Position numbers and translations under genes: made by a program | Assembly: GCA_022773425.1 (NCBI GenBank) | Contig: JALFBM010000044.1 | Span: 1 to 63,968, forward strand | Direction: 5' to 3' | DNA length: 63,968 nucleotides | Source of the DNA: Selenomonadaceae bacterium | GTDB lineage: Bacteria > Bacillota > Negativicutes > Selenomonadales > Selenomonadaceae | In this document: positions 3,443 through 36,449 of the stretch, in pieces | How positions within the stretch are numbered: the first letter of the stretch is position 1 | How the letters are laid out: each line of letters opens with the position of its first letter | Notes under the pieces: generated by a model | The model's database searches: none | What the model saw: only the letters and a program-made list of their open reading frames with translations | What the model was told of the DNA's origin: nothing

Positions 3443-3512
3443 ATGAACAATAGATTGTGTAAGTATGTTGAGATGGCGAACGGAACCGGAATCGAGAACA
3501 GGGGGCAGCGCA

Positions 3513-4637: not shown

Positions 4638-4678
4638 TTTGGGCTGCACGCGCATTTCCTGCTTTTTTGAAAAAACCA

Positions 4679-4707
4679 TTGACAAGAGCGCCGGAAATGC
4701 GTATAAT
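4679..4707 (+). promoter_or_regulatory. Consensus sigma-A promoter of tRNA-Asn
   Basis: A perfect TTGACA (4679-4684) and a perfect TATAAT (4702-4707) are separated by 17 nt. The tRNA begins 18 nt after the -10 box. Confidence 0.85.
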
Positions 4708-4725
4708 AATATCTGTTGTTGAGAT

Positions 4726-4801
4726 TCCTCGATAGCTCAGCCGGTAGATCACCTGACTGTTAATAAGGCTGTCGCAGGTTCGAATCCTGCTCGAGGAGCC
4801 A
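4726..4801 (+). tRNA. tRNA-Asn (anticodon GUU), with two stem mismatches
   Basis: The sequence folds as a 76-nt tRNA with perfect acceptor (TCCTCGA/TCGAGGA) and T stems (GCAGG/CCTGC), an encoded CCA, and anticodon GTT at 4759-4761. Two stem pairs are broken. In the D stem, C11 faces U24 (T at 4749). In the anticodon stem, G30 faces A40 (A at 4765). A usual bacterial tRNA-Asn would have GAGC and TCAGG at these places. It has a consensus promoter and a strong terminator, so it is likely transcribed. Whether it is a working tRNA or a decaying copy is unclear. Confidence 0.85.
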
Positions 4802-4810
4802 GAAATCACA

Positions 4811-4839
4811 GCGGTGCAGCGTATGCTGCACCGCTTTTT
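4811..4839 (+). terminator. Rho-independent terminator after tRNA-Asn
   Basis: A perfect 10-bp stem, GCGGTGCAGC/GCTGCACCGC, with a GTAT loop and followed by five T. Confidence 0.9.
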
Positions 4840-4895
4840 CGTTACCCCAAAGGCAGATCTTTCTATGGGAAAGGCTGCCAAGAAGGAGGATTCCT

Positions 4896-5582
4896 ATGAA
4901 ACTGGATGACCGCCTGCAGGCGCTGGCCGACTTTGTCCCCTCAGGTTCCCGCGTTGCGGATATCGGCACGGATCACGGGTATCTGGCCGTCGCGCTCGTC
5001 GAGAGCGGGAAGGCCTCTTTTGTCGTTGCGAGCGACCTGAACCGCGGCCCATGCGAGGCCGCGAAGCGAACGGTTGCCGAGGCGGGCCTTGCATGGGGCA
5101 TCGACGTGCGTCAGGGCGACGGCCTCGCACCGCTCGCACCCGGTGAGGTGGATGTCCTCTGCATCGCGGGCATGGGCGGCGCGTTGATGACGCAGATCCT
5201 TGCGGCGGGTGCCGCCGTACTGGAGAAGGTGCAGCGGCTCGTCCTGCAGCCGATGAACGGTGCGGGAAAACTCCGCCGCTGGCTCTACGAGAACGGCTGG
5301 CATATCGACGATGAGAGACTTGCCGTCGCGGATGGGCGGCTCTACGAGATCCTGACGGCCGTGCCAGGCTATGCGCCGATGCCAGAGGCGGTATTGCTCG
5401 ACATCGGCCCGATACTCTGGGAGAAAAAGCCCCCGCTCCTGCGGCAGCATATCGAGGCGCTGCTGTTCTCGGCCCGCCGAGAGGCCGCTGGCATGGAGAA
5501 CAGCGAGCAGGCGGTAAAGAGCGAGAAATACCGGCAGGTCCGGGCGCGCATCGAGGCGCTCGAGGCGCATCGAAAGAGCTAA
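4896..5582 (+). CDS. trmK: tRNA (adenine(22)-N(1))-methyltransferase
   Basis: SAM-dependent enzyme that methylates N1 of A22 in the D loop of certain tRNAs. The 228-residue protein has the Rossmann SAM-binding motif VADIGTDHGYLAVAL at about residues 19-33. It also has CIAGMGGALM near 90 and LVLQPM near 115, all typical of the TrmK (YqfN) family. The C-terminal third is helical and charged, like the family's coiled tail. The ATG is preceded by AAGGAGGA. It lies downstream of rpoD and 61 bp before the Nif3-like gene, as in many Firmicutes. Confidence 0.93.
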   Translation: MKLDDRLQALADFVPSGSRVADIGTDHGYLAVALVESGKASFVVASDLNRGPCEAAKRTVAEAGLAWGIDVRQGDGLAPLAPGEVDVLCIAGMGGALMTQILAAGAAVLEKVQRLVLQPMNGAGKLRRWLYENGWHIDDERLAVADGRLYEILTAVPGYAPMPEAVLLDIGPILWEKKPPLLRQHIEALLFSARREAAGMENSEQAVKSEKYRQVRARIEALEAHRKS

Positions 5583-5643
5583 GCTAGGCGATGCCTGCTT
5601 GCCTGGGATGCGGCAGGCTATGGAGGAAAAGGAGGAAGTTCCC

Positions 5644-6444
5644 ATGGTGACGGTACAGACGATAGCCGACATTCTGGAGCGGATTGCCCCGCGGCGCTAC
5701 GCGGAGGACTGGGATAATCCGGGCCTGCTCGTCGGGCGTCCGGACGCGGAGGTGCGGAACATCGTCGTGTGCCTTGATGTCAGCGCAGACGTGATTCGCC
5801 AGGCCGTGCACGAGCAGGCCGATCTCATCGTGTCGCATCACCCGCTGCTTTTCCACGGACAGAAAGCGGTGCGGACCGATGCGCCAACGGGACGGCTCAT
5901 CGCGCTTCTCATCAAGCACAATATCGCTTCGTTTGCGGCGCATACGAACCTCGACATCGCCGCAGGCGGCGTCAATGACGTGCTGGCCTCGCGCATCGGC
6001 CTGACCACGATCGAGCCGTTCATCCCCGTGCCTGGCAGCGAGGGGCTCAGCATGGGCCGCATGGGGCGGCTTGCCTCGCCGATGGGCCTTGAGGACTTTG
6101 CCAAGCAGGTCAAGGCTGCTCTGCCGGTCACGGCGATCCGCTACGTCAAGGCGGCCGACCGCCGCGTCGAGCGCGTCGCGCTCTGCAGCGGCAGCGGCGC
6201 GGAATTCATCGGACAGGCCGCCGCGATGGGGGCCGACGTTTACGTGACGGGCGATGTGAAGTATCACGACGCGCAGCTCGCGATGGGCCTCGGGCTGGAC
6301 GTGATCGACGCAGGGCATTTCGGTACGGAGTTTCCGGTCGTGCCGGTGCTCGCGGAGCGCCTGCGCGCGGAGCTCGCGGCGGACGGCCTCGACGTTCCCG
6401 TGCTCGAAGATACGCAATCCCAGGATTTTTTCCAGACCATCTGA
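5644..6444 (+). CDS. Nif3-like dinuclear metal-centre protein (YqfO family)
   Basis: Member of the Nif3/YqfO family, often named GTP cyclohydrolase 1 type 2. Its cellular role is not settled. Family marks include DWDNPGLLVG near the N terminus, the metal ligands of VSHHPLLFHG and AAHTNLD, and the C-terminal DAGHFGTEFP with a further His and Glu. At 266 residues it is the short form, without the inserted PII-like domain seen in B. subtilis YqfO. The ATG at 5644 follows GGAGG by 8 nt; an earlier in-frame ATG at 5599 is less likely. The pairing with trmK is conserved in Firmicutes. Confidence 0.9.
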   Translation: MVTVQTIADILERIAPRRYAEDWDNPGLLVGRPDAEVRNIVVCLDVSADVIRQAVHEQADLIVSHHPLLFHGQKAVRTDAPTGRLIALLIKHNIASFAAHTNLDIAAGGVNDVLASRIGLTTIEPFIPVPGSEGLSMGRMGRLASPMGLEDFAKQVKAALPVTAIRYVKAADRRVERVALCSGSGAEFIGQAAAMGADVYVTGDVKYHDAQLAMGLGLDVIDAGHFGTEFPVVPVLAERLRAELAADGLDVPVLEDTQSQDFFQTI

Positions 6445-6456
6445 GAGGTGCAGCCT

Positions 6457-7401
6457 ATGAAAGAATCGTTTCGCCGGCATGCCGGCCGCTACGCCGAGAT
6501 CACGCTCGGCAGTCTCATCACCTGCCTGGGATTCAACCTGTTCCTGATCCCGGGGCATTTGCTGACCGGCGGGATCTCCGGCGTCGCGCTGATCATCTAC
6601 TATATGACGGGCTTGCCCGCCGGTGCGCAGAACTTCGTCTACAACCTGCCGATTCTCTATCTCGCGTACAAGGTGTTCGGCAAGCTCTACGCCTGGGACA
6701 CGATCGTCGGCACGGTGCTTCTGTCGTTCTTCCTCGATGCGACGCATTTCGTCGTCGGGTGGCAGATCGTCGACGATGTGCTGCTGAACGCGATTTTCGG
6801 CGGTGTGCTCGCGGGCATTGGCTTCGGGCTCGTGTTCCGCGCGAACGCGAACACGGGCGGTTTTGATGTGCTCGCAGCCGTCGCGAAGAAATATTTTTCG
6901 ACGGACGTCGGCACGGCGGTCTTCGTCATGAACTTCATCATCGTCATGGGTTCCGCCTTCCTGTTCACGCTGAAGGAGGCGCTGTTCTCCATCATCGCCA
7001 TCTACGTGACCGCGGAGCTCACGAACCGCGTCGTCGCGGGTCTGAACCGTGAAAAATCCATCGTCGTCATCTCGCCGCAGGCCGAGACCATCTGCCGCGA
7101 GATCATGGAGAAGGTGCATCGCGGCGTGACGTATCTCGACGGCCGCGGGGGATTCGCCGGTGAGCGCAAGGACATTCTGTTCGTCGTCGTGCGCCTCACG
7201 CAGGTCAGCCGCGTCAAAGCCATCGTCGAGGCGAGCGATCCGCAGGCCTTCATGATTGTATCCGACACCTCCGAGGTCTCCGGCAAGGGCTTTACCCTCG
7301 AATGCGAAAGTTATGCTGAAGCACGCCGCCGCTGGGAAGAAGCGCATGGAAAGAGCAGTGGCGGGGAAGCGCAGCAAAAAAATAGAGATTTTTTTTCCTA
7401 G
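6457..7401 (+). CDS. YitT-family membrane protein
   Basis: Predicted integral membrane protein of unknown transport or sensing role. It has about five or six hydrophobic helices in residues 15-200 (for example ITLGSLITCLGFNLFLIP and FVYNLPILYLAY) and the conserved GGFD segment in NANTGGFDVLA. A soluble C-terminal DUF2179 domain follows (from about 205; GVTYLDGRGGF and ILFVVVRL), which ends most YitT proteins. Its 314 residues are the usual length. The ATG at 6457 is chosen because GAGAGG precedes it; a GTG at 6448 overlaps that ribosome-binding site. It starts 12 bp after the Nif3-like gene, so it is probably in that operon. Confidence 0.88.
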   Translation: MKESFRRHAGRYAEITLGSLITCLGFNLFLIPGHLLTGGISGVALIIYYMTGLPAGAQNFVYNLPILYLAYKVFGKLYAWDTIVGTVLLSFFLDATHFVVGWQIVDDVLLNAIFGGVLAGIGFGLVFRANANTGGFDVLAAVAKKYFSTDVGTAVFVMNFIIVMGSAFLFTLKEALFSIIAIYVTAELTNRVVAGLNREKSIVVISPQAETICREIMEKVHRGVTYLDGRGGFAGERKDILFVVVRLTQVSRVKAIVEASDPQAFMIVSDTSEVSGKGFTLECESYAEARRRWEEAHGKSSGGEAQQKNRDFFS

Positions 7402-7406
7402 CGGCT

Positions 7407-7432
7407 TAAGTCCCTGGAAAAAGAGACGATAT
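7407..7432 (+). promoter_or_regulatory. Sigma-28 (FliA/SigD)-like promoter of flagellin
   Basis: TAAG (7407-7410) and GACGATAT (7425-7432) are separated by 14 nt. This is close to the flagellar sigma consensus TAAA-N15-GCCGATAA/T, and it lies in the 174-bp gap before the flagellin gene. No good sigma-A promoter was seen there. Confidence 0.6.
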
Positions 7433-7575
7433 ATATAGTGTAAAAAGAGAAACGGCCGGGGAACGGGTAGCATGCGTCCGGTCTTCGGCACGGTTCTTTT
7501 CATGGTAGGGCGGGCATGGATGTCCGCGAAAACAAGAGTGGGCTTGGTACCCCATTCTCAAGGAGGAATTTTATT

Positions 7576-8901
7576 ATGGCAATGGTAGTCAAAAACAACA
7601 TGTCGGCAGTTTCCACGCTGAACACGCTGAATAAGAACTCGTCTGCACTCGCAAAGAGCCTGCAGAAGGTTTCCTCGGGTATGAAGATCAACTCGGCAGC
7701 CGATGACGCTTCCGGGTATGCGATTTCCGAGCGCATGCGCGTTCAGATCCGCGGCCTCGACCAGGCAAACCAGAACACGCAGAACGGCAGTAGCATGATG
7801 AAGGTTGCCGAGGGCGCGGTTTCCTCGACGGTCGACATCCTGAAGACCCTCAAGGAGAAGGTCATCAACGCAGCCAACGATACGAACACGGACGCTGACC
7901 GTCAGACGATCCAGAAAGAGCTCGACCAGAGCATCGACCAGATCGACGACAACGCGAACGTGACGTACAACGGCAAGTACCTCGTCGACGGCTCGCACAA
8001 CAGCAAAACGGACGCTACGAAGACGGCTCTGACGAACGAGTCCCTCGACGTGAAGACGACGGATACTAGTAATCTGACCGATCTTAAAAACCGCAACGGC
8101 GAGAGCCTGAACATCCTCTCGACGGATACGGTGACGGTTTCCTATGTCAGCCAGGGCAAGACCTACACGACGTCGATGACGGTTGGTAAGAATACGACGC
8201 TTAAGACTATCCTCGACAAGCCGGCGAAAAACGGCTCGCAGAAGCTCGAAGGTGCGCTTACGCTGAACACGACAAAGACCTCGAAGATTGGCGTCGATGG
8301 CAACGGCAATACGGTCTACACGGCAGACATGGGCTGCGCGATGACGCTGACGGCAAAGACGGCTGGTATCGCTGGCCAGATTTCCGGCTTCACGATCAGC
8401 ATCACGAGCAACACGGGCGCAACGCGCAAGAGCGCAAACGCGGTTCTCGACAACTTCTCCGAGAGCATCCGCGCACAGAACAAGTCCGATGACAACTCGA
8501 TTTCGCTGCAGGTCGGCACGAAGGCCAACCAGAACATCAAAGTTGGTCTGACGGATATGCGCTCCGAGGCTCTTGGCCTGAAGGGTTCCGACGGCAAGAC
8601 GCTGAACGTCTCGACGCAGGCTAAGGCAAACGCCGCGATCAACGTCCTCGACAACGCCGTGCAGAAGGCACTCGATCAGCAGACGACGATCGGCTCCGTT
8701 GAGTCCCGCCTCTCCTACACGAGCAGCAACTTGACGACGGCTTCCGAGAACGTCCAGAGCTCCGAGTCCACGATTCGCGATGCGGATATGGCAAAGGAAA
8801 TGACGGAATACACGAAGAACAACGTTCTTCTGCAGGCCGCTCAGTCCATGCTCGCACAGGCGAACCAGAGCAGCAGCTCCGTTCTCAGCCTGCTCCAGTA
8901 A
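7576..8901 (+). CDS. fliC: Flagellin
   Basis: Major flagellar filament subunit. The 441-residue protein has the conserved N-terminal D0/D1 region (LNKNSSALAKSLQKVSSG, DDASGYAISERM, QNTQNGSSMMKVAEGA) and the C-terminal D0 (ADMAKEMTEYTKNNVLLQ, ending SVLSLLQ). These flank a Thr/Ser/Lys-rich variable middle of about 250 residues exposed on the filament. There is no signal peptide, as expected for type III flagellar export. ATG 7576 follows AGGAGGAA. It is monocistronic, with a sigma-28-like promoter and its own terminator. No other flagellar structural gene is in the window. Confidence 0.97.
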   Translation: MAMVVKNNMSAVSTLNTLNKNSSALAKSLQKVSSGMKINSAADDASGYAISERMRVQIRGLDQANQNTQNGSSMMKVAEGAVSSTVDILKTLKEKVINAANDTNTDADRQTIQKELDQSIDQIDDNANVTYNGKYLVDGSHNSKTDATKTALTNESLDVKTTDTSNLTDLKNRNGESLNILSTDTVTVSYVSQGKTYTTSMTVGKNTTLKTILDKPAKNGSQKLEGALTLNTTKTSKIGVDGNGNTVYTADMGCAMTLTAKTAGIAGQISGFTISITSNTGATRKSANAVLDNFSESIRAQNKSDDNSISLQVGTKANQNIKVGLTDMRSEALGLKGSDGKTLNVSTQAKANAAINVLDNAVQKALDQQTTIGSVESRLSYTSSNLTTASENVQSSESTIRDADMAKEMTEYTKNNVLLQAAQSMLAQANQSSSSVLSLLQ

Positions 8902-8913
8902 TGCATAGGCGCT

Positions 8914-8931
8914 GCATAGCAGTTGCTATGC
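8914..8931. repeat. Perfect 18-nt inverted repeat after flagellin
   Basis: GCATAGCA-GT-TGCTATGC lies between the flagellin stop and its terminator. It would form a second 3' hairpin in the mRNA and could add to transcript stability. Confidence 0.5.
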
Positions 8932-8935
8932 CAGC

Positions 8936-8969
8936 GAAAAGCCCTCTCCCGTTTGGGAGAGGGCTTTTC
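8936..8969 (+). terminator. Rho-independent terminator of flagellin
   Basis: A 15-bp perfect stem with GTTT loop (GCCCTCTCCC/GGGAGAGGGC flanked by AAAA/TTTT). Confidence 0.9.
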
Positions 8970-9027
8970 TATCGCATGGCGCCTGGCGAAAAAGGCGTTC
9001 TTTTTCCGTTTTCTGTCCGCCGTACGG

Positions 9028-9057
9028 TTGACGGCCGCGCGCGGGGTAGAGTATAAT
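9028..9057 (+). promoter_or_regulatory. Sigma-A promoter of leuS
   Basis: TTGACG (9028-9033) and TATAAT (9052-9057) with an 18-nt spacer, 81 nt before the chosen leuS start. Confidence 0.75.
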
Positions 9058-9084
9058 AGGTGATAGCTGTAAAACGCGATAGAT

Positions 9085-9117
9085 GAGTGCCGGTCTGCCT
9101 TTTGCAGACGGGCACTC
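9085..9117 (+). promoter_or_regulatory. Stable hairpin in the leuS leader
   Basis: The two-part stem GAGTGCC/GGCACTC and GTCTGC/GCAGAC falls in the leader just upstream of the ribosome-binding site. No T run follows, and no T-box core (GGTGGTACCGCG-like) is present, so it is neither an obvious terminator nor a T-box. Its role is unknown. Confidence 0.45.
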
Positions 9118-9138
9118 TTGGTATCAGGGGGAATGGAT

Positions 9139-11613
9139 ATGGACCGTTACGAGCCGCAAAAAATTGAAAAGAAATGGCAGGAAAAATGGCTGAAAGAGGA
9201 CGTCTATCATACGGAGGCGGATCCGTCGCGGCCAAAATATTATGCGCTCGAGATGTTCCCGTATCCGTCGGGCAACCTGCACATGGGCCATGTGCGCAAC
9301 TACGCCATCGGTGATGTTATGGCGCGCTACAAGGCGATGGAGGGCTACAACGTCCTGCATCCGATGGGCTTTGATTCGTTCGGCATGCCGGCCGAGAACG
9401 CGGCCATCAAGCACGGTGTAAAGCCGGGGGACTGGACGCTCTCGAACATCGCGAATATGGAACGCCAGCAGAAGTCGATGGGCCTTTCCTACGATTGGGA
9501 TCGCGAGGTCATCACGTGCAAGCCGGAGTACTATAAATGGACGCAGTGGCTGTTCGAGCTGTTCTACAAGCGCGGCCTTGCGTACAAGAAAAAGGCCTCG
9601 GTCAACTGGTGTGATACCTGCGGGACTGTGCTTGCCAATGAGCAGGTCATCGATGGCAAATGCTGGCGCTGCGATTCTGAGGTGCACAAAAAAGACCTCT
9701 CGCAGTGGTTCCTCAAGATTACGGACTATGCCGACGTGCTGCTGAAGGACCTCGACAAGCTCGAGGGATGGCCGGAGCGCGTCAAGACGATGCAGCGCAA
9801 CTGGATCGGCCGCAGCGAGGGCCTCGAGTTCCAGCTCGAGGTGCCGGCACTCGGCAAATCCATTTCCGCTTATACGACGCGCCCGGATACCGTCTATGGT
9901 ATCACATTCCTCGCCCTCGCGGCAGAGCACCCGCTGATGGACGCGATCTGCGCCAAGAGCGAGCATGCGTCGGAGATCCAGGCGTTCTGCAAGAAGACGC
10001 GCAACCAGAACGACATCGAGCGCACGTCGAGCGAGTCGGCGAAGGAAGGCGTGTTCACGGGCCTTTACTGCGTGAATCCGTTCAACGGCCGCAAGGTGCA
10101 GATCTGGGTCACGAACTATGTGCTCGCCGACTACGGCACGGGCGCCGTCATCGGCGTGCCGTCCGAGGATACGCGCGACTGGATGTTCGCGACGAAATAC
10201 GGTATCGAGAAGATCCTGACGATCCGCCCGAAGGAGGGCGAGCTGAAGCTTGAGGACATGACGGATGCCTATGCCGAAAAGGAAGGCTATCTGATCAATT
10301 CCGGCGAGTTCGACGGCATGGAGATGCACGAGGCCATGGGCGCCATCATCGACAAGGCCGAGAAAGAGGGCTTCGGCAAGCGCCATGTGAACTACCGCCT
10401 GCGCGACTGGCTGATCTCGCGGCAGCGCTACTGGGGCGCGCCGATCCCGGTCATCAACTGCCCGCATTGCGGTGAGGTACTCGTGCCGGAGGAGGATCTG
10501 CCGGTCCTGCTGCCGGAGGATGTCTCGTTCCGGCAGGGCGCGCTCTCCCCGCTTTCGTCGAGCGAGAGCTTCCTCCACTGCAAGTGCCCGAAATGCGGCG
10601 CCGATGCGACCCGCGAGACGGACACGATGGACACGTTCATCTGCTCGTCCTGGTACTATCTGCGCTACACGGATCCGCATAACGACAAGATGCCGTTTGC
10701 GAAGGATAAGGTCAACTACTGGGCGCCGGTCGATCAGTATATCGGCGGCATCGAGCATGCGATCCTGCATCTGCTGTACTCGCGTTTCTTCACGAAGGTC
10801 CTGCACGATGCAGGCCTCGTCGATTTCGATGAGCCGTTCAAGAACCTGCTGACGCAGGGGATGGTCCTCAAGGACGGCTCGAAGATGTCGAAATCGAAGG
10901 GCAACGTCGTTTCGCCGGAAGAGATCATCGGCAAGTACGGCGCGGATACGGCGCGCCTGTTCATCCTGTTTGCAGCGCCGGTCGACCGCGATCTCGAGTG
11001 GAGCGACCAGGGCGTCGAGGGATCGTACCGCTTCCTCGGCCGCGTATGGCGTATCCTCGGTCATTTCGAGGACACGATCAAGGGAGCGTCTGACGACTAC
11101 GACGTCACGAAACTCACGAAGGAAGAGAAGGAGCTGCGCCGGATCCTGCATACCACCATCAAGAAGGTGACGGATGATCTGCGCGACCGCTTCATGTTCA
11201 ATACGGCGATCTCGACGATTATGGAGCTCGTCAATGCCTTTTACGGTTTCCAGGACAAGGCGGTCAACGCGGGGCTCGTGCGCGAGGTCGCGCGGAACCT
11301 GCTGCTGCTGCTCGCGCCGTTCGCGCCGCATATCACCGAGGAACTTTGGAGCCGTCTGTTCGCGGAGGGCTCGGTACACGCGCAGCATTGGCCGTCCTAT
11401 GATGAGACGGCCATGAAGCGCGACGAGATCGAAATCGTCCTGCAGATCAACGGCAAGGTCCGCGACAAGGTCGTCGTGCCGGCGGACATCGACCGCGAGG
11501 GCATGAAGGCAGCGGTCATGGAACTGCCGCGCGCCAAGGAACTCACGGCCGGCAAGACCATCGTCAAGGTCATCGCCGTGCCGAAGAAGCTCGTGAACAT
11601 CGTCGTAAAGTAA
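9139..11613 (+). CDS. leuS: Leucyl-tRNA synthetase
   Basis: Class I synthetase charging tRNA-Leu. The 824-residue protein shows the HIGH-type motif in [15 protein letters not shown] (about 41-55). A zinc-binding Cys pair is in [10 protein letters not shown] and CWRCDSE, and the CP1 editing domain carries [16 protein letters not shown]. The KMSKS motif is near 582, followed by the anticodon-binding and C-terminal domains. GGGGG lies 7 nt before ATG 9139; the in-frame ATG at 9133 is too close to that ribosome-binding site but cannot be excluded. Confidence 0.97.
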
Positions 11614-11647
11614 AGGGCAATAGATTCCGCAGGGAGTGTGGAAACGG

Positions 11648-12739
11648 ATGTTAAAAGCCTATGCCATAGAGAACCTCAAGAGCGGCATGGTGGTCGGCCG
11701 CGATGTCAACGACCCGGACGAGGGCCTGCTGATCCGGGCGGGAACCGTGCTGAACAACGCGACTATCTTCCAATTGCTCGACCGGCCGATCTTCTCCATC
11801 TACATCGAGGAAGAAGAAAAGAAAAAGCATGTCACACCGACGAAAAGCTCGCTGCTCGATGCGCCGTACGTGGCGTGTTATCAGCAGGCCTATGGGCAGA
11901 TGGAGGAACTGCTCAGCAAGCTGCGCGAGGGGGCGGGGCTCGACATCGTGCTGCTCGAGTCCATCTTTTCGGCCGAGAATATGCGCCAGCTCTGCGATGG
12001 GTCCAAGGCGGTCTCGCAGCTCAGCAATATGGACCGGTCGGGGGACTACCTCGTCCACCACAGCCTGCACCTCGCCATCCTCGCGGGACTCATGGGCCGC
12101 TGGCTGCGCTATGACGACCAAAAGCGGCACGACCTCGTCATCACGGGCCTGCTGCTCGACATCGGCAAGATTAAGATTCCGGATACGATTCTAAGCAAGA
12201 AGGGGCCGCTCTCGGATGAGGAGTTCCGCGCCATCCAGAAACATGCGGAATACGGCTACGAGATGCTCAAGGACACGCAGCTCGGCACGAACCGTGATAT
12301 CTTGTTCGGCGTGCTGCAGCATCACGAGCGCTGTGACGGCTCTGGCTATCCGTACGGCGTCTGCCGCGCGCAGATTTCGGATTTCGGCCGGATCATGGCC
12401 ATCCTCGACATCTACGATGCGATGACCGCGGACCGTTCGTATGCGAAGAAAAAGTCACCGTTCGACATTTTCGCTATCCTCCACGACGACATCATGAGTG
12501 GCAAACTCGATACGGAGTACGGCGTCTATTTTACCAAGCATTTCTGTCACGCGCTGAACGGCAGCTGGGTGCGGCTGTCCACCGGTGAGGTCGGGCACAT
12601 CGTCTACCTCGATGAAAGCCGCGTTGACGCGCTGCCGATCGTGCAGACCCTCGACGACCAATTCATCGATCTCAGCAGCAACATGTCCGTCAAAGTCGAG
12701 GCCATCCTGAACGCCGAGGAAGCACAGCACGCGGAATAA
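11648..12739 (+). CDS. HD-GYP domain protein (candidate cyclic-di-GMP phosphodiesterase, altered HD motif)
   Basis: The 363-residue protein has an N-terminal region of about 125 residues (starts [20 protein letters not shown], a DUF3391-like opening) and an HD-GYP domain from about 130 to 300. The GYP loop is intact ([12 protein letters not shown]). The HD pair, however, reads L170-D171 in GLLLDIGK, where a CTC codon (12155-12157) replaces an expected His codon. That His is a metal ligand in active HD-GYP enzymes, so activity is doubtful. The start at ATG 11648 follows AGGGAG by 11 nt. leuS is 34 bp upstream, so the two may share a transcript. Confidence 0.85.
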
Positions 12740-12757
12740 TCGAAAGCAGGAAATCCG

Positions 12758-12786
12758 AAATCCTCCCCGCCGGGGAGGATTTCTTT
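12758..12786 (+). terminator. Terminator after the HD-GYP gene
   Basis: Stem AAATCCTCCCC/GGGGAGGATTT with a 3-nt loop, then CTTT. It ends just before uvrB. Confidence 0.8.
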
Positions 12787-12801
12787 ATGGGAGGGAACAG
12801 T

Positions 12802-14847
12802 ATGTCCATGGTTCCAAAGCTCAACACGATGCAGTTTGAGGAGGAGACGCCCTTTGAGGTCGTCGCGCCGTTCGAGCCGATGGGCGATCAGCCCAAAGCC
12901 ATCCGCGATCTCGCGGCGGGCGTCGAGGCCGGTATGGATACGCAGGTCCTGCTCGGTGCGACGGGCACGGGCAAGACCTATACGATCGCGAAGGTCATCG
13001 AGAAGGTGCAGAAGCCGACGCTCGTGATCGCGCACAACAAGACGCTCGCCGCACAGCTCGCGAGCGAATTCAAGGCGTTTTTTCCGCACAATTACGTCGG
13101 TTATTTCGTCAGCTACTACGATTTTTATCAGCCGGAGGCGTATATCGCGTCGACGGATACCTATATCGAGAAGGATGCGTCCATCAACGACGAGATCGAT
13201 GAGCTGCGGCACAGCGCGACCTGCTCGTTGTTCGAGCGGCGGGACGTCATCATCGTCGCGTCGGTTTCGTGCATCTATGGTCTCGGCTCGCCGGAGAGCT
13301 ACCACGAAATGGTGCTGTCCCTGCACAAGGGGCAGCAGGTCGATCGCGACGCGATCTTGCGAAAGCTCGTCACCATCCGCTACGAGCGCAACGATATTGC
13401 GTTCGAGCGCGGCAAGTTCCGCGTGCGCGGCGACGTCATCGAGGTATTCCCGGCAGGGTATAACAACCGCGCGGTGCGCATCGAGCTGTTCGGCGATGAG
13501 ATCGACCGCATGCTCGAGTTTGACGTCACGACCGGCGAAATCTACGGGGAGCGCACGCATGTGATGATTTTCCCGGCCTCGCATTATGTGACGCCGGAGG
13601 AAGACATGAAAATCGCGAGACAGGACATCCGTGCGGAACTCGAGGAGCAACTTGCGAAATTCAAGCGGGAAGGCAAGCTGCTCGAGGCGCAGCGGCTCGA
13701 GCAGCGCACGAATTACGACCTCGAGATGATGGAGGAGGTCGGCTACTGTTCGGGGATTGAGAACTATTCGCGTCACCTCGCGCACCGCGCGGCCGGACAG
13801 GCGCCGTACACCCTGCTCGACTATTTCCCGGAGGATTTTCTGATCGTCATGGACGAGAGTCATGTGACACTGCCACAGCTGCATGCGATGTACGCTGGCG
13901 ACCGCAGCCGCAAGGTCTCGCTCGTCGAGAACGGGTTCCGCCTGCCGTCGGCGTTCGACAACCGGCCACTGACGTTCGAGGAGTTCCAGGCGCGCGTGAA
14001 TCAGATCATCTACGTCTCGGCGACGCCGGGGAAGTACGAACTCAGCCGTGCGCAGCAGGTCGCCGAGCAGATCATCCGGCCGACCGGCCTTCTGGATCCG
14101 GAGATTGAGATCCGGCCGCTCGAGGGGCAGATCGACGACCTGATCGGCGAGATCAAGAAGCGCATCGAGAAGAACGAGCGCACGCTCGTGACGACGCTGA
14201 CGAAGCGTATGGCGGAAAACCTCACGGACTACCTGAAGGAAATCGGCATCAAGGTCACATACCTGCATTCCGATATCGCGACCATTGAGCGCGCCGAGAT
14301 CATCCATGACCTGCGTGCGGGGAAGTACGACGTGCTCGTCGGCATCAACCTGCTGCGTGAGGGCCTCGATATGCCGGAGGTATCGCTGATTGCCATCCTC
14401 GATGCGGACAAGGAGGGATTCCTGCGCTCGGATACGTCGCTAATCCAGATCATCGGGCGCGCGGCGCGCAATGCAAATGGACATGTGATCATGTACGCGG
14501 ACGTGCAGACGGATTCGATGAAGCGCGCCATCGGCGAGACCAACCGTCGGCGTGAGATCCAGCAAGCCTACAATCGCGAGCACCATATCACGCCGAAGAC
14601 CATCGTAAAGCCGATCAAGCCGCTGATCGAGACGACGCTTGTCGCGGCGGAATCCGCGGCGGATTATGAGAGCGGCAAGCGGAAAAAGAAGCTCACGAAA
14701 AAGCAGAAGGCAAACCTCGTGCAGACGCTCACGCGCGAGATGCAGCAGGCTTCTCGCGCACTCGAGTTCGAACGGGCGGCGGAGCTGCGCGATATGATCC
14801 TCGAGCTCAGCGGGAAACTGCCGGGCCAGAAGGATGATGCGAAATGA
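12802..14847 (+). CDS. uvrB: Excinuclease ABC subunit B
   Basis: DNA-damage recognition helicase of nucleotide excision repair, working with UvrA and UvrC. The 681-residue protein has Walker [11 protein letters not shown] at about 52-61 and the DNA-inserting beta-hairpin region ([19 protein letters not shown]). DESH follows near 350, then helicase motifs V/VI (IGRAARN) and a C-terminal UVR domain ([11 protein letters not shown]). ATG 12802 has GGAGGG 6 nt upstream; an earlier ATG at 12787 precedes that ribosome-binding site. uvrA is in this window but not adjacent. Confidence 0.97.
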
Positions 14848-18789: not shown

Positions 18790-21700
18790 ATGGTTGTGAT
18801 GAGCATGGCGGATGAGAAAAAGGGATTGGCGGGGATGGATTTTTTCCCCGGCGGGGTGGTACTCATTTCACGCGACGAGGAGGAGCGGATCCTGGCGGTC
18901 AGTGCGCATGCCTGCGAAATGTACCAGTGTGACTCGGAAGAGGAGTTCTTCACATTCAGCGAACGGCAGTACTGCAGTCTAGTGGTGCCGGATGACTACG
19001 TGCCGCTGGCGGATCTGTATGCGCGTCGCACGCAGGACACGGTGGACTCCTTATGTGTATACCATTTCCATATGCGGACGAAGATCGGGTATTTTCGCTG
19101 GCTCGAGGGGGTGCTCGGGCCCGTGGACGTGCCAGGCTTTGGCAAGGCCTGGTCCCTGCATTTTATTTACAGCCGTACCCGGGATGCGGCCATCGAGCCC
19201 GATGCTATGACCGGCCTGATGGGGTGGCATACGTTTTATCAAAGAGCTGCGGAGGCTGCCGTCAGGAACGCGAAGAACGGAACCATCGGGGACTATGTGT
19301 CCGTCTACCTGAATCTTACCAACTTCAAAATGTACAATGCGAATCACGGCGTGAAAGCGGGGGACGCCCTGCTCCGGAACGTCGCCTCGCTGTTGCATCG
19401 CTGTTTCCCGGACACGTTGATGTGCCATTTGTCCGCGGATAACTTTCTGATGCTCGCCCGCCGGGAGGACATCGAAAAGAAGCTGACCGCGATGGAACGA
19501 GCGTTCCGCGCGCAGAATGCCGACTCCTCCGTATCGATGAAGGCCGGTATCACACTTTTTGAGCGGCTTTCGGAGGAGGAGCGGCGCGATCCGCGGCGGA
19601 CGTTTGATACGGCAAAGATTGCCGCGGACAGTATCAAGCAGGACAGCAGCCGCGTCTATGCGGTCTATAGCGAGGATATGGGACGTCGCCTCCAGGAGGA
19701 AACCTATGTGCTTCGTCATTTCGAGAAGGCGATCGAAAAGGGTGACATCAAGGTATACTATCAGCCGGTCGTCCGCACGCTGACGGGTAAGATCGCCAGT
19801 ATCGAGGCGCTCGCGCGCTGGGAGGATCCGAAGCAGGGCATGCTGATGCCGAATGTCTTCATTCCCGTGCTCGAACGCATGCGGCTGATCACGAAGCTGG
19901 ATTTCTATGTCGTCGAGGAGGCAGCAAAGCTCCTGCGGTTCCAGATGGAGAATCAGCGGCCGGTGTTGCCGGTTTCCGTGAACCTGTCGCGCGTTGATTT
20001 CGATCTCTGCGATCCCGTGGAAAAGGTCGAGGAAATCGTGGGACGCTACGAACTGCCCCGCGACCTGCTGCGCATCGAGATCACCGAGACGGCGCTCGCG
20101 CTGGGCTCGAAGAAACTGCAGCAGGCCATCCGGCGCTTTCATGAGGCCGGCTATGCGTGCTGGCTCGACGATTTCGGCAGCGGCTATTCCTCGCTGAACA
20201 TGCTACACCATTTTTCTTTTGATGAGATCAAGTTCGACATGTCCTTCCAGCGCAACAGCAATGAGGAGAGTCGGAAAATCCTGCGCGCGCTGGTCGTGAT
20301 GGCGAAGAACCTCGGCATCCATACGCTCGCGGAGGGCGTGGAGACCGAGGAGCAGGCTGCGTTCCTGCGCTCCATCGGCTGCGAGATGATCCAAGGGTAT
20401 CTTTACGGGAAGCCGATGCCGTACGAGGCCTGCCACCGCCACTGCTTTGAGCGGCAGCTGCTTTCGGAGGAACGGCCGGAGGCCCTCGCGATGGAGAAAG
20501 CCGGCCTCACGAACCTCCTCACCGATGTGCCGCTTGCCGTATTCTGCTATGACGGCGAAAAAAGGCTCGCAGAGCTTTGGCGGAACAAGGCCTATATCAA
20601 GACCATCCTGCCCGTCGCACGGTTGGATTTCCCCGAGGAACGGCAGTTCATCGATTTGAGCGTTTCGCCTTTTCTGAGTCAGTTCAAGGAAATGCTCGAT
20701 CGGGCCGTGCGCTCGGGGAAAGAGGAATTCCTGACCTATGTGAAGGACGGTCAATACATGCGGGTCAAGGTGCGGATCTTCGCAGGTTCTCCGGGTGTTT
20801 ATACGGGAAGAACGGAACTCTACAACATCACGTTCGACGATTCGATCCGCCATACGCGGCGCATCGAGAAGGTATCGAAGTATCTGTTGCCCGTTTACGA
20901 GAGCGTTTACCTTTATCATGGCAACCGAGGGGAACTCGAGCTGCTCAGTGAACGGCAGGCGTCGGACCAGGGATCGAAACGACTTTCGATCCGCACGTGG
21001 ATGACGGAGCAAAAACGCATACACCCGGCGGATCAACCGCGGTTTGCTCAATGGGCGGCGCCGCGCACGCTTTGCCGGCAGATTCAGGAATCGCCGCACG
21101 GCGTAGTGACCGGTCTGTTTCGCACGCAACAAGAGGATGGGAGCTACCGCTGGAAAGAATTTCACGCATTGCCCACCGATGGGGAGGCGGACGATATCCT
21201 CCTCGGCATCAAGAACGCCGCGTTAGAGCAGGTCAAAGACCGCCGGAAAATTCTCCCAGAATTTTTGCGTTCGTTCGGCCTGCGGGCCGAGCTGCCAGCT
21301 GTGCCTCAGGCCATCCAGCAGGGCACGGTACTCGATGCGCTCAAGAGCTCGCAGGACATCAAATTTTTCTGGAAGGACCGGCAGCGCCGATTCCTCGGCG
21401 TCAGCAAGGGATTCCTCAACTATTTCGGTATCCACGACGAGGCCGCGATTCTTGGCAAAACCGATGAGGAAATGGGCTGGCATGTGGATGCGTATCCCTA
21501 TCAATCCATTGAGAAGGAAATCCTGCGGGAGGGGAAAGTATCCTGCGGAGCCATCGGCAAATGCATCATTCGCGGTCGGATTCACACCATCCGTGCAAGC
21601 AAGATCCCGCTCTATGAGGACGATCGGATCATCGGGCTGATCGGGTATTTCGAGGATCTGGACCGGGAGCAGAAAATCCGGCAGAAGGATGTGGACCTCG

Positions 21701-23493
21701 GCCTGATTGACCTGGATACGGGGCTTGCCGGTTTCCGCGGCATGATAGCGGCCGGTATCGAATATTTCAATAATTACGAGCGGCAGCAGGAGGACTTTAT
21801 CGGTATCCTGTTCCACATCCCGGAGCTGACAACCATCTCCCGCAGATACGGCGAGCAGTTCCGAAAGGAACTGCTGCATAAGATCAGCCGGATTTTCATG
21901 GAGCAATGTTCGCTCGGGGAGACGCTTGGGCATTTCAGCAACGGAAGATTTCTGCTGTATATGAAGTATCGAAAGTCCGCCGACCTCGACGATCTCGTGC
22001 TCCATCTGTCCAACCGGATTCACGCCATCCGAGAAATCCACGGACGGCCGGTCACGCTGTATCTGCAGTCGGCCGTGGCCTATGGCTCAGAGGCTGGCAG
22101 TATGAACGGGCTGATTCACCTGCTTTCGGAACGGCTCTACGAGGCAGAACGACAGCGGTACGGACAGTCTATCTTCGTTGGCGACCGCATCGCGATTGAC
22201 CGCGAGGCGTTCGATACGAGCGATCAGAACGTGATGATGAGCCGCCTCGATAACGACGAGCTGATTTACGTCAACAAGGCGGGGCTCAGGGACCTCGGTC
22301 TGCCGGATACCTACGATTACAGCGGCAAGAAATGCTATGAGCTGCTCTGCGGGGGGGATAAGCCCTGCGAGGAATGCCCGAAGAAGCTGTTGCGCCGCGA
22401 CCGCTTCTACACGCGTACCTACTACAATCGGGCGCTCGGGCGGGTCTATCTGATCAACCAGGTGCTCGTCCCATGGCGCGGACGGCTCTGCCAGCTCGAA
22501 ATCGCGACGAATATGCGCAACTACGTCAGCGATGAAATCCGGAAGAACGATGTGTTCTTCCGCGAGATGGCAGTCAACGACGCCATCGAGGCCGGGCTGG
22601 TGGAAAAGGATCCATCGCGTGGCATTCAGAATATGCTGGGATGTGTCGGCGAAATCCTCGAATGCGAAAGGGCCTGTATTTATGAGGAACAGCCGGACGG
22701 CACGGTGAAGAATACCTACGAATGGTGCAGGGATGGCATTTCGTCGATGCAGGCAAAACGCCAAAAGGTGTCGCGTGAGAACGTGCAGTATCTGTACGAT
22801 TCCTTCGGCATAAATCAGATTGCCATCATCAACAACGTCCAGCAGATTCTGGATCGCTATGGCATTACGCGGACACACAGCAAAGAGGTAAAGAGCATCA
22901 TCTCCGGGCATCTGATTTTCGGGGGAGATTCTATTGGCTTTACCGAGATCGTCAATCCGTCGGAGAAGATCCTGAAAGAGGCAAGCCCCCTGCTCGCGAC
23001 GATGACGCGATTCCTCGCTATTTTGATCAACAACCGGAACAATATGAACAGCCTGAACCAGATGAGCTATATGGACGTCATGACCGGCACGCGAAACCGC
23101 CGGGCGTTCCTGCACTGTGTCAAGGGTCTGCCGCCAGACCGCGAGATGACGTTCGTGTTCGGCGATATGAACGGCCTCAAATACATCAACGACCATTTCG
23201 GGCACAAGGCCGGCGACGAGGCCATCTGCAAGGCTGCCGACATCATGAAAGCGATGGCCGGGGATGACAACGTGTTCCGCATGGGCGGCGATGAATTCAT
23301 CCTAATGCTCAGCGACACCGATGCAGAAAAGGGGCAGGCGTTCATCCAGCGCATGAAGGCGGCCTTTAAGAAAGACGGCATCAGCATGGCGCTCGGTGCG
23401 GCGACGAAACGCACACCCATCCCGAACGTCGACCTCCTCATCACCGTGGCCGACGGCGAGATGTATAAAGACAAGAAAAAACCGAGAAAATAA
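18790..23493 (+). CDS. Large multi-domain PAS/GGDEF/EAL signalling protein
   Basis: This 1567-residue protein probably makes and/or degrades cyclic-di-GMP. In order it shows a PAS-like N-terminal region (about 10-130) and a degenerate GGDEF domain (about 140-300, SADNF near 216). A complete EAL domain follows (about 310-560: IEALARWEDP, VNLSRVDF, IEITET, LDDFGSGYSSL, FDMSF, AEGVETEEQ, QGYLYGKP). Next are a long linker with PAS-like folds, a PAS near 855-960, and a second degenerate GGDEF (about 975-1130, SNGRF). The tail has a Cys-rich PAS (CYELLCGGDKPCEECP near 1182), a GAF-like region, and an intact C-terminal GGDEF (MGGDEFILM near 1497). The RxxD inhibitory site is absent there. There are no clear membrane helices, so it is probably cytosolic. 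It follows rimI by 9 bp. The start is ATG 18790, with 18799 and 18805 possible. Confidence 0.88.
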   Translation: MVVMSMADEKKGLAGMDFFPGGVVLISRDEEERILAVSAHACEMYQCDSEEEFFTFSERQYCSLVVPDDYVPLADLYARRTQDTVDSLCVYHFHMRTKIGYFRWLEGVLGPVDVPGFGKAWSLHFIYSRTRDAAIEPDAMTGLMGWHTFYQRAAEAAVRNAKNGTIGDYVSVYLNLTNFKMYNANHGVKAGDALLRNVASLLHRCFPDTLMCHLSADNFLMLARREDIEKKLTAMERAFRAQNADSSVSMKAGITLFERLSEEERRDPRRTFDTAKIAADSIKQDSSRVYAVYSEDMGRRLQEETYVLRHFEKAIEKGDIKVYYQPVVRTLTGKIASIEALARWEDPKQGMLMPNVFIPVLERMRLITKLDFYVVEEAAKLLRFQMENQRPVLPVSVNLSRVDFDLCDPVEKVEEIVGRYELPRDLLRIEITETALALGSKKLQQAIRRFHEAGYACWLDDFGSGYSSLNMLHHFSFDEIKFDMSFQRNSNEESRKILRALVVMAKNLGIHTLAEGVETEEQAAFLRSIGCEMIQGYLYGKPMPYEACHRHCFERQLLSEERPEALAMEKAGLTNLLTDVPLAVFCYDGEKRLAELWRNKAYIKTILPVARLDFPEERQFIDLSVSPFLSQFKEMLDRAVRSGKEEFLTYVKDGQYMRVKVRIFAGSPGVYTGRTELYNITFDDSIRHTRRIEKVSKYLLPVYESVYLYHGNRGELELLSERQASDQGSKRLSIRTWMTEQKRIHPADQPRFAQWAAPRTLCRQIQESPHGVVTGLFRTQQEDGSYRWKEFHALPTDGEADDILLGIKNAALEQVKDRRKILPEFLRSFGLRAELPAVPQAIQQGTVLDALKSSQDIKFFWKDRQRRFLGVSKGFLNYFGIHDEAAILGKTDEEMGWHVDAYPYQSIEKEILREGKVSCGAIGKCIIRGRIHTIRASKIPLYEDDRIIGLIGYFEDLDREQKIRQKDVDLGLIDLDTGLAGFRGMIAAGIEYFNNYERQQEDFIGILFHIPELTTISRRYGEQFRKELLHKISRIFMEQCSLGETLGHFSNGRFLLYMKYRKSADLDDLVLHLSNRIHAIREIHGRPVTLYLQSAVAYGSEAGSMNGLIHLLSERLYEAERQRYGQSIFVGDRIAIDREAFDTSDQNVMMSRLDNDELIYVNKAGLRDLGLPDTYDYSGKKCYELLCGGDKPCEECPKKLLRRDRFYTRTYYNRALGRVYLINQVLVPWRGRLCQLEIATNMRNYVSDEIRKNDVFFREMAVNDAIEAGLVEKDPSRGIQNMLGCVGEILECERACIYEEQPDGTVKNTYEWCRDGISSMQAKRQKVSRENVQYLYDSFGINQIAIINNVQQILDRYGITRTHSKEVKSIISGHLIFGGDSIGFTEIVNPSEKILKEASPLLATMTRFLAILINNRNNMNSLNQMSYMDVMTGTRNRRAFLHCVKGLPPDREMTFVFGDMNGLKYINDHFGHKAGDEAICKAADIMKAMAGDDNVFRMGGDEFILMLSDTDAEKGQAFIQRMKAAFKKDGISMALGAATKRTPIPNVDLLITVADGEMYKDKKKPRK

Positions 23494-33704: not shown

Positions 33705-34124
33705 TTAATCCTCGTATTCGAGTTTATTCTCCTCGCAGAACCATCGCGCGAGGTCGAGAAAATGCTGGTGCAGGTAGGCTTCCCAATCGGCGAGCAACAG
33801 CATTTCCTTTACGGCATGGCGGAACCGCGTCGCGCCGCCTGGCTGACGGAGCGCCTCGAGCAGGCGCTCTTTTTTTGCGCGTTCTTTCTGCGCTTCGGCG
33901 AAAGAGCGCATGGTCTCGCGTTCTTCGCCGTCGTAGAGGTCCGGGATCGGCACATAGTTCTCAAAATCGTCCTCGATATCGAACACGCGGTCGAGAACCT
34001 GCTGGTCGTCCTCGCTGCCGTCCGTATCGACAAAGACAACGGTCCCCTTGCCGATGTCGACGTAGCTCTGCTGGACATCGGATTGTTCGAGGGCTTTTGC
34101 TAATTCACTGAGCTGAATTTTCAT
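33705..34124 (-). CDS. UPF0158-family protein
   Basis: A 139-residue acidic protein of unknown function (UPF0158 type). It starts MKIQLSELAKAL and has Y-V-D-I-G-K-G near the N terminus, a Glu/Lys-rich helical middle, and the C-terminal WEAYLHQHFLDLARWFCEEN. ATG 34124 has GGAGG 8 nt upstream on the minus strand. It lies 30 bp downstream of the EIIC-EAL gene on the same strand and is probably co-transcribed. It converges with tyrA, with only 5 bp between stops. Confidence 0.8.
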   Translation of the reverse strand: MKIQLSELAKALEQSDVQQSYVDIGKGTVVFVDTDGSEDDQQVLDRVFDIEDDFENYVPIPDLYDGEERETMRSFAEAQKERAKKERLLEALRQPGGATRFRHAVKEMLLLADWEAYLHQHFLDLARWFCEENKLEYED

Positions 34125-34154
34125 CAGGTACACCTCCGGGAAGAAAGGGGGACG

Positions 34155-36449
34155 TTAGCATTCTGCGCCTTCCCCTTCCGTATCGTTCGCCGCGATGGGT
34201 TCCTTTTCTGCGCCGCGGCTTTCTTTCTCGCTCTTTGGGTACGATATGTTTTCGCGGCCCTTGTCGACAATCAGATGCATGAGCCGATTTTCGGAAACCG
34301 GCGGACTGTACAGGTAGCCCTGGAAGATATCGCAGCCGAGCGTTTTGAGCTGGTCACGCTGCGGCACGTTGTCGACGTATTCGGCGACGGTCATCATATC
34401 CATGTCGCGCGAGAGGCTTGTCAGCGAGGAGACAATCTGTTGGCTCTTTTGATCGGTCAGCACCTTTCGCGTAATGCTACCGTCGAGTTTGACCATACCA
34501 AAAAGACCGGTCTGCAGGTAGTTGATCGAGGTCTGTCCCATGCCGAAATCGTCGACGATGAGCTGGTGTCCCTGCGCCTTGAGGTTCTCGAGGTTCGACT
34601 GTGTCTGTTTGTTCAACGTGATCGTATCCTGCTCGGTAATCTCGATCCAGAGCTTGCGCGGGTCGATGTTCGTCTCCTGGACGATGCGGCGGATGGAGCG
34701 GTTGAGCCCGTCGTAGAGCAGCGACTCGCCGGTAATGTTCGCCGAGATCTTGAAGTTTGCGTCTTTGCCGAGCATTTTCTCAAGCCGCGCGATGCATTCG
34801 CAGGTATCGCGGAAAATGAATTCTTCGAGCTTTGGCAGGAAACCGCCGCACTTCGCGAGCGTAATGACCAGCGGCGGATAGATGAACCCAGCGTCTGGGT
34901 GCTTCCAGCGGAGCAGGGATTCTGCGCCGATGATCTTGCCATTGCTCGCGATCTGCGGCTGATAGACCATGAACAGCGTATCTTTATGGGGCTTACTCAG
35001 CTCTTCCTCGAGGTCATTCATAAGCCGTGTAAAGATAAAGGATTGCTGATCGTTGAAGTTTGCGGGATTGAAACGCTCTGCCTTTGCCTCATACCATTGG
35101 TGCAGCTTCTCGAGATGGCGGGTCAGACGCTCGGTCTGCGTCGAGCGATAGCGGTCGTAGAGCTTGACGAACGGTTTGAACAGAAAGAGGTCGATCAGGA
35201 GCAGGAAAAGCTGCGCGGCGGCGCCGTTTAGGGAACCCGTTGCGGCATAGCCGGAGAGCAGCGGCGGAACAGCCCAGCTGACCTCGTGGATGGTCGGCGG
35301 GATCAGTCCGAGCCGCGTCATGCCATAGGCGATGGCGAGATTGGCCATCGGGATCAGCAGGATGGCCGGCAGGAAAATCGGGTTGCCGATCAGCGGAAAC
35401 CCGAAAACCGCGACCTCGCTGACGTTGAAACAGGCTGGGAGCAGCGAGAGCCTTGCGATAAGCTTGCTGAACTTTTGCGTGCTGAATGTCAGGAAAGAAA
35501 CCGACAGGGCGAGGATTGCCCCGGAGCCGCCGAGATACGCAAAGCAGTTGAAAAAGGATTCGTTCATCAGGATTGGCACCGTGCCTTCCGCGGCCGGCAC
35601 CGCGTTGATCTCTGTGAAGAATGCGGTCTGACTGCCGAGGAACAGCGCGTTGCCGTTGATGCCGAAGAACCACGGCAGCTGGGCCAGCAGCGTGTGTACC
35701 TCAGCGGCGAAGAGCTGCGAGATCGGGCAGAGTGCCAAAAGCCAAAGCGCCGCGTCGTTTAGCTGCTCCTGCAAGATTCGGCCGCCGCCGACGAAAAGAA
35801 TGCCGGCCTGCGCGAAAATCGCGAGCAGGAGAATGGCGAGCACGATCGGGATGGAGTAAAGCACATCGAACAGATGCATGTCAATCCGGAGAACGGGAGG
35901 CGGGGAGGCGATTTTGAAAAACCGTTCGTAGCCGTTGAGCTTCAGGAAAAAGAAGCTTGCGAAAACCGCGGAGAAGATTGCCGTGCAGATGGCAGAGCGG
36001 CCAAAATAGGAAATCCGGCCGCCGGAAAAAATCCAAAAGCAGGCAACTGCGGACATGTTGAGCAGGACGCTGCGGAAGACTTTGAGCCTCCACTCGCGGG
36101 CAAAGCTGAACGCGAGCGCGCCGGCAGTCAGCAGCGAAAAATAACTCTGCGAGGCCTGATAGACTGCGCCGAGCAGATTGTAAAACCAGTGGCCGTTGTT
36201 CATCAGAAAGAACTGCCAGCTGCTGAGCGGGAGCGTGAGCAAGGCGAACGCGAGCGCGCGGATCAGAATGAACGGGATCAGCAGTACCATGCCATTCCGC
36301 AGCGAGTGGAACACGCGGTTCTTGTTGAGCGCCGCTGTAACCTGGAACCAGAACGCCGTGGAGAACATCGGCATCCGCGTCCCCTCTGCATTCGTCTTAC
36401 GGAAAGAGGGTATCGTGTCTTGTGTGGTGGTATCTGTTTTTTTACTCAT
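34155..36449 (-). CDS. PTS EIIC membrane domain fused to an EAL (cyclic-di-GMP phosphodiesterase) domain
   Basis: A 764-residue fusion. Residues about 30-440 resemble a lactose/cellobiose-type PTS EIIC: many hydrophobic helices (for example GMVLLIPFILIRALAFALL, LLSLLPACFNVSEVAVFGFP, NPIFLPAILLIP). The cytosolic C-terminal part (about 480-735) is an EAL domain. Its catalytic residues are kept: Glu of AESLLRW (ESL instead of EAL), Asn of SANITG, IEITEQ, VDDFGMG, VKLDGS, Glu of AEYVDN and Gln of FQGYLYSPP. No EIIA or EIIB gene is nearby, so a sugar-sensing role rather than transport is plausible (inference). It is divergent from the LysR gene. Confidence 0.88.
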   Translation of the reverse strand: MSKKTDTTTQDTIPSFRKTNAEGTRMPMFSTAFWFQVTAALNKNRVFHSLRNGMVLLIPFILIRALAFALLTLPLSSWQFFLMNNGHWFYNLLGAVYQASQSYFSLLTAGALAFSFAREWRLKVFRSVLLNMSAVACFWIFSGGRISYFGRSAICTAIFSAVFASFFFLKLNGYERFFKIASPPPVLRIDMHLFDVLYSIPIVLAILLLAIFAQAGILFVGGGRILQEQLNDAALWLLALCPISQLFAAEVHTLLAQLPWFFGINGNALFLGSQTAFFTEINAVPAAEGTVPILMNESFFNCFAYLGGSGAILALSVSFLTFSTQKFSKLIARLSLLPACFNVSEVAVFGFPLIGNPIFLPAILLIPMANLAIAYGMTRLGLIPPTIHEVSWAVPPLLSGYAATGSLNGAAAQLFLLLIDLFLFKPFVKLYDRYRSTQTERLTRHLEKLHQWYEAKAERFNPANFNDQQSFIFTRLMNDLEEELSKPHKDTLFMVYQPQIASNGKIIGAESLLRWKHPDAGFIYPPLVITLAKCGGFLPKLEEFIFRDTCECIARLEKMLGKDANFKISANITGESLLYDGLNRSIRRIVQETNIDPRKLWIEITEQDTITLNKQTQSNLENLKAQGHQLIVDDFGMGQTSINYLQTGLFGMVKLDGSITRKVLTDQKSQQIVSSLTSLSRDMDMMTVAEYVDNVPQRDQLKTLGCDIFQGYLYSPPVSENRLMHLIVDKGRENISYPKSEKESRGAEKEPIAANDTEGEGAEC

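Follow-up and report, generated by a model that had tools for sequence, protein, structure and literature searches.

A gene in the stretch of Selenomonadaceae DNA analysed here (63,968 nucleotides, referred to as the window) joins a PTS sugar-permease domain (EIIC) to an EAL domain of the cyclic-di-GMP (c-di-GMP) phosphodiesterase type. This raises the question of whether the permease half still transports a sugar, or whether it has become the input module of the phosphodiesterase. Databases already contain the EIIC-EAL architecture, and one review covers it: in the passages cited here, PTS_EIIC is listed among the domains rarely seen in c-di-GMP proteins (PMC8846402). A full-text literature search retrieved no experimental study of any EIIC-EAL protein.

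Results

The fusion gene and its two domains

The fusion is encoded by a stop-free reading frame of 764 codons (34155–36449, minus strand; Table 1). The ATG at 36374 (residue 26) is probably the true start, since a GAGGGG ribosome-binding-like motif lies just 5' of it and residues 1–28 are disordered in an AlphaFold2 model, which was built from 42 family sequences (mean pLDDT 87, pTM 0.83). In this model a helix (residues 407–455) exits the membrane part of EIIC, and a second helix (residues 467–485) enters the EAL domain. A spurious reading frame was ruled out: homologues carry both domains in one chain and align end to end at 25–55% identity, as members of an EIIC-EAL fusion family, with dN/dS far below 1. 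A UPF0158-family gene starts 21 bp past the fusion stop codon and is possibly co-transcribed with it.

Table 1. Features of the EIIC-EAL locus, with positions given as those of the window.
Feature	Position	Strand	Details or evidence
EIIC-EAL fusion gene	34155..36449	-	764 aa as annotated; likely start ATG 36374, giving 739 aa
PTS EIIC domain, lactose/cellobiose family, residues 38-438	35136..36338	-	PF02378, TIGR00410, PDB 3qnq, Foldseek
Helical linker, EIIC to EAL	35016..35135	-	AlphaFold2 model
EAL domain, residues 479-717, complete active site	34299..35015	-	PF00563, residue check, Foldseek
Asn265 codon, at ChbC His250 position	35655..35657	-	3qnq alignment, family columns, PMC11393339
Glu345 codon, at ChbC Glu334 position	35415..35417	-	3qnq alignment, family columns
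UPF0158-family gene, downstream	33705..34133	-	PF03682, E = 4e-10

The first-pass annotation had assigned the N-terminal half to the lactose/cellobiose-type EIICs and the C-terminal half to intact EAL domains, and domain searches and structure prediction for both halves confirmed these two families. The Pfam PTS_EIIC profile (PF02378) matches residues 51–364 (E = 3.7e-11; 43.1 bits, cut-off 30.7). The NCBIfam models lacE and cello_pts_IIC cover residues 38–438 (E = 1.2e-40), scoring 139.8 bits against curated cut-offs of 236 and 434; the TIGR00410 match is under its own cut-off of 236, yet spans this whole region. ChbC (PDB 3qnq) is the sole PDB sequence relative of the membrane half (E = 9e-28, residues 35–437), and Foldseek likewise pairs the two structures (E = 3.4e-15, target TM 0.50, rmsd 9.5 Å); the low TM score may be due to a different elevator position in the model. 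Profiles, PDB match and fold together place this half among the EIICs, and not in another, non-PTS family.

The C-terminal half matches the Pfam EAL profile at residues 479–717 (PF00563, E = 1.3e-55), and Foldseek ranks EAL structures first, with that of the active enzyme BifA (8arv) at TM 0.93–0.94. All nine site residues are present (E510, N571, E603, E606, D633, D634, K654, E690 and Q710), and these metal, substrate and catalytic residues are identical across 45 fusions, bar one missing column in the frameshifted protein of L085. The EAL part is predicted from its sequence to hydrolyse c-di-GMP. Sequence and fold thus agree with both families initially proposed. The accompanying suggestion, that DDFGMGQTS and AEYVDN deviate from consensus in a way that implies changed activity, was dropped: EIIC-EAL fusions typically read DDFGMG[QH]TS and AE[YF]V[DE]x at these sites. 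Genome searches gave six EAL and eleven GGDEF matches in the source genome, so the fusion enzyme has a c-di-GMP network on which to act. Elsewhere in the window, a very large open reading frame (19201–23487, plus strand; 1570 aa) carries one EAL and three GGDEF matches.

The EIIC site of the window protein

In the alignment with 3qnq, Asn265 of the window protein occupies the position of ChbC H250, a His-to-Asn change that the first-pass annotation did not record; the conserved EIIC histidine is thus absent. Glu345 aligns with ChbC E334, so that the catalytic Glu is kept, and Trp392 is kept too. Among the ligand contacts, E334 and H250 alone are described as conserved between chitobiose and glucose transporters (PMC11393339), and the HP1b histidine has been implicated in phosphotransfer (PMC12900739). 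Loss of the NEP-motif proline was considered as a marker of the fusions and discarded, since ChbC itself reads NEM.

Distribution of the family and the histidine-lost clade

About 40 near-full-length EIIC-EAL fusions were recovered from Selenomonadaceae, Lachnospiraceae, Treponema and Succinivibrionaceae, with further examples in C. difficile and marine Proteobacteria. In 41 loci (L049–L089), obtained by scanning genome contigs, the match extends into the EIIC half, and in most of them it covers nearly the whole protein. Their hosts are Selenomonadaceae, Lachnospiraceae, Treponema, Succinatimonas and another Aeromonadales MAG, and the frames of L069, L075, L085 and L087–L089 are broken or shortened relative to the match. 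L153 and L154, of the same class, were gained through another search. Within the same family (Selenomonadaceae), three genus relatives have a fusion that is 56% identical, and identity is about 40% for the copies in G140 and G028; a phylum survey of 398 genomes yielded five further full-length fusions and one split fusion. Plasmid-collection records add fusions of C. difficile, Acetoanaerobium, Tritonibacter, Pseudoalteromonas and Photobacterium. At one locus (G530, contig C10, 55675–57749) a stop separates the EIIC and EAL halves, which represent either a broken fusion or two genes. A phage origin was rejected, as no relative was found among viral contigs and phage records gave partial, EAL-level matches only. 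EIIC-EAL is an established but little-studied family.

The ChbC H250 position is His in 37 of the 45 fusions of the main alignment and Asn or Asp in the other eight; adding two tandem L053 paralogues brings the non-His proteins to ten. The same position is His in 23 of 24 canonical lone EIICs, the exception being L133, with Asn. All ten Asn/Asp fusions, including the window protein, form one clade (support 100/99), and its sister is a histidine-kept Treponema protein. The loss was one ancestral event in the clade and counts as a single observation. Selenomonadaceae and Succinivibrionaceae are mixed within the clade, which points to transfer between phyla. In the three genus relatives His is replaced by Asp, the ChbC E334 position reads D, S and D, and the Trp392 position A, D and A. 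Further near-invariant EIIC positions are altered in the clade (G64, H257, S267 and D301, with G350 and W392 in several members). Across the fusions, P59, P74, G266, G307, G308, G310, P352 and N356 are invariant. A histidine-lost clade with an intact EAL domain, as opposed to the histidine-kept majority, appears to be undescribed in the literature searched.

Two side observations concern the same position. An EIIC-EAL protein of Photobacterium sp. DA100 (L209) also has Asn there (SLGINGHN), seemingly through an independent loss. A Succinatimonas MAG has no fewer than three EIIC-EAL paralogues in tandem (L053, from 6013 to 13669 and further), all with Asn; an extra open reading frame grouped with the family begins at 13708 and runs off the end of the locus.

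Constraint on the EIIC half

Among pairs with EAL identities of 55–65%, which are not independent of one another, identity between the EIIC halves is 31% in the histidine-lost clade versus 40% elsewhere. The dN/dS of the EIIC half is about 0.16–0.18 within the genus and 0.34 between the window protein and L049, where dS is high, and these values indicate a constrained domain. A decaying EIIC half was ruled out, given end-to-end alignment of the homologues and dN/dS far below 1.

EAL enzymes usually function as dimers, and the EIIC might serve as a mere membrane anchor or dimerisation scaffold for a phosphodiesterase that is constitutively active at the membrane. Such a role is in keeping with the dimeric state of EIICs of the lactose/cellobiose family (PMC7329351) and with the faster divergence of the EIIC than of the EAL half, strongest in the histidine-lost clade. 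However, the EIIC half is under purifying selection and retains invariant positions, a 400-residue permease is a costly anchor, and the tandem paralogues of L053, at least three in number, have diverged EIIC halves that better suit ligand diversification. We therefore consider a simple anchor quite improbable.

PTS partners and gene neighbourhood

Profiles for EIIA and EIIB were built from genes adjoining lone EIICs, and these detected the positive-control locus L201. No lac-type EIIA or EIIB was found with them in the 64-kb window or within about 6 kb of about 50 fusion loci (some flanks being shorter than 6 kb), the five plasmid-collection loci among them. The lack of nearby partners noted in the first pass thus extends to the whole window, and a survey for the same fusion without EIIA/EIIB recovers the family widely, with lac-type partners near none of the fusions tested. 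Such partners are, though, present on other contigs of the source genome: contig C5 carries a complete cellobiose-type EIIC, EIIB and EIIA set, with GH1 6-phospho-beta-glucosidase-like and GH16-like genes beside it (recognised by eye rather than by profile search), and EI and HPr are encoded on C30. The fusion adjoins smc in the genus relatives, and in the window a LysR gene intervenes. Apart from this genus smc locus, and from GGDEF-EAL genes that adjoin L054 and L055, no recurrent functional neighbour of the fusions was found.

The genes on C5 and C30 would allow a bifunctional "trigger enzyme", in which EIIC transports and phosphorylates a beta-glucoside with EIIA and EIIB supplied in trans, and its turnover tunes the EAL domain; the His, Glu and Trp retained in most histidine-kept relatives are consistent with this. 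Against it stand the His-to-Asn change here, the His-to-Asp change accompanied by Glu to Asp or Ser in the genus relatives, and the finding that EIIA/EIIB adjoin no fusion tested. EI and HPr were also not found in the relative G042; their genes are neighbours in relatives and a single assembly gap could remove both, so this absence was set aside as proof of PTS independence. We regard the bifunctional permease as unlikely overall, and a transporting bifunctional protein as possible mainly for the histidine-kept relatives.

EIIC domains in other signalling contexts

In G033 an EIIC-EAL protein (L013/L047, 11088–13208) has a degenerate EAL domain, with metal positions and most of the catalytic residues lost, and keeps the EIIC His and Glu intact; the product of the neighbouring gene resembles a hybrid histidine kinase. 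Such a combination is what would be predicted if control ran in the reverse direction, with the EAL domain acting as a c-di-GMP receptor that gates EIIC. The clade of the window protein shows the opposite, a perfect EAL site and an eroded EIIC site, which makes reverse flow very improbable there; only for L013 is it suggested.

Other proteins link EIIC to histidine kinases. In L018/L048 (G046, contig C143) an EIIC with its histidine kept is joined to a histidine kinase, recognised by eye, and a receiver. At L213 (G029, 2840–8927), L156/L212, L155 and L157, EIIC-like proteins that stand alone and whose histidine motif has diverged share an operon with genes for a response regulator (by eye), a PnrA/Bmp-like binding protein and a membrane histidine kinase. 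This kinase is a hybrid with REC and Hpt domains in both examples tested, and in L213 a REC-HD-GYP gene follows. The L213-type operon looks like a second signalling use of EIIC. Given the fusion to a hybrid histidine kinase and the histidine kinase operons, use of EIIC as an input module recurs.

Discussion

The best reading of these data, to which we assign a probability of roughly 60%, is that the fusion is an EIIC-derived and probably non-transporting membrane receptor that controls a c-di-GMP phosphodiesterase. The idea, already raised in the first-pass annotation, that the EIIC is a sensor setting the c-di-GMP level rather than a transporter gains support as a predicted function from the clade-wide loss of the histidine, the loss of the Glu in close relatives, the lack of EIIA or EIIB nearby and the full retention of the EAL site. 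A receptor also best fits the combination of a perfect EAL domain, an altered EIIC site, constraint on the EIIC half and missing partner genes. Weighing against it are the retention of Glu345 and Trp392 in the window protein, and L133, a lone canonical EIIC that also has Asn. Most relatives keep both EIIC residues and could still transport, and the EIIA/EIIB and EI/HPr encoded elsewhere in the genome could act in trans.

For the fusion we infer phosphodiesterase activity, ligand binding, the direction of control and the loss of transport as follows. The input module of the membrane-bound phosphodiesterase would be a decommissioned PTS sugar permease of cellobiose/chitobiose-type descent, which in the clade of the window protein would no longer make a phospho-sugar. 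The EIIC half would either bind a ligand, with a product of glycan breakdown the likeliest candidate, or report the position of its elevator domain. Its movement would be passed through the exit helix (407–455) and the linker helix (467–485) to an EAL dimer, which would hydrolyse c-di-GMP.

A broader proposal, which we put forward tentatively and with some doubt, is that EIIC permeases have repeatedly become pure membrane receptors, coupled to EAL domains, to hybrid kinases and to the REC/EIIC/PnrA-like/hybrid-kinase operon, and so make up an unrecognised class of PTS-derived glycan sensors. Under this proposal, the EAL clade that abandoned phosphotransfer would have moved between rumen Selenomonadaceae and Succinivibrionaceae. 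To our knowledge, only a small number of natural ligands is known for c-di-GMP phosphodiesterases. If the receptor reading is true, a permease turned receptor would make the c-di-GMP level of rumen and gut bacteria depend directly on sugars outside the cell, and the family would offer a natural series (His kept, His lost, Glu lost, EAL lost) for studying the change from transporter to sensor.

Each half of the fusion has a characterised counterpart. ChbC, the diacetylchitobiose PTS EIIC of Bacillus cereus (3qnq), is homologous over residues 35–437 and has the same fold, and its Glu334 position is kept here; the window protein differs in having Asn in place of His250, an added EAL domain and no EIIA/EIIB nearby. 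The EAL domain of Pseudomonas aeruginosa BifA (8arv) has the same fold as that of the fusion (TM 0.93) and the full set of catalytic residues in common with it; the input module of the fusion, in contrast, is an EIIC, and loop 6 of its EAL domain reads DDFGMGQTS. The PTS_EIIC proteins of PMC8846402, described there as rare, belong to the same architecture class, with PTS_EIIC joined to a GGDEF, EAL or HD-GYP output. In the passages cited, PTS_EIIC is called a phosphoreceiver and no studied EIIC-EAL protein is named, whereas the window protein lacks the histidine and has no EIIA/EIIB nearby. In Vibrio cholerae, the PTS sugar state controls the c-di-GMP phosphodiesterase PdeS through EIIA-Glc (work of Heo et al. 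2019, summarised in PMC8846402). There, a separate and phosphorylatable EIIA acts in trans; here, the PTS component is an EIIC within the same chain, and its site is altered.
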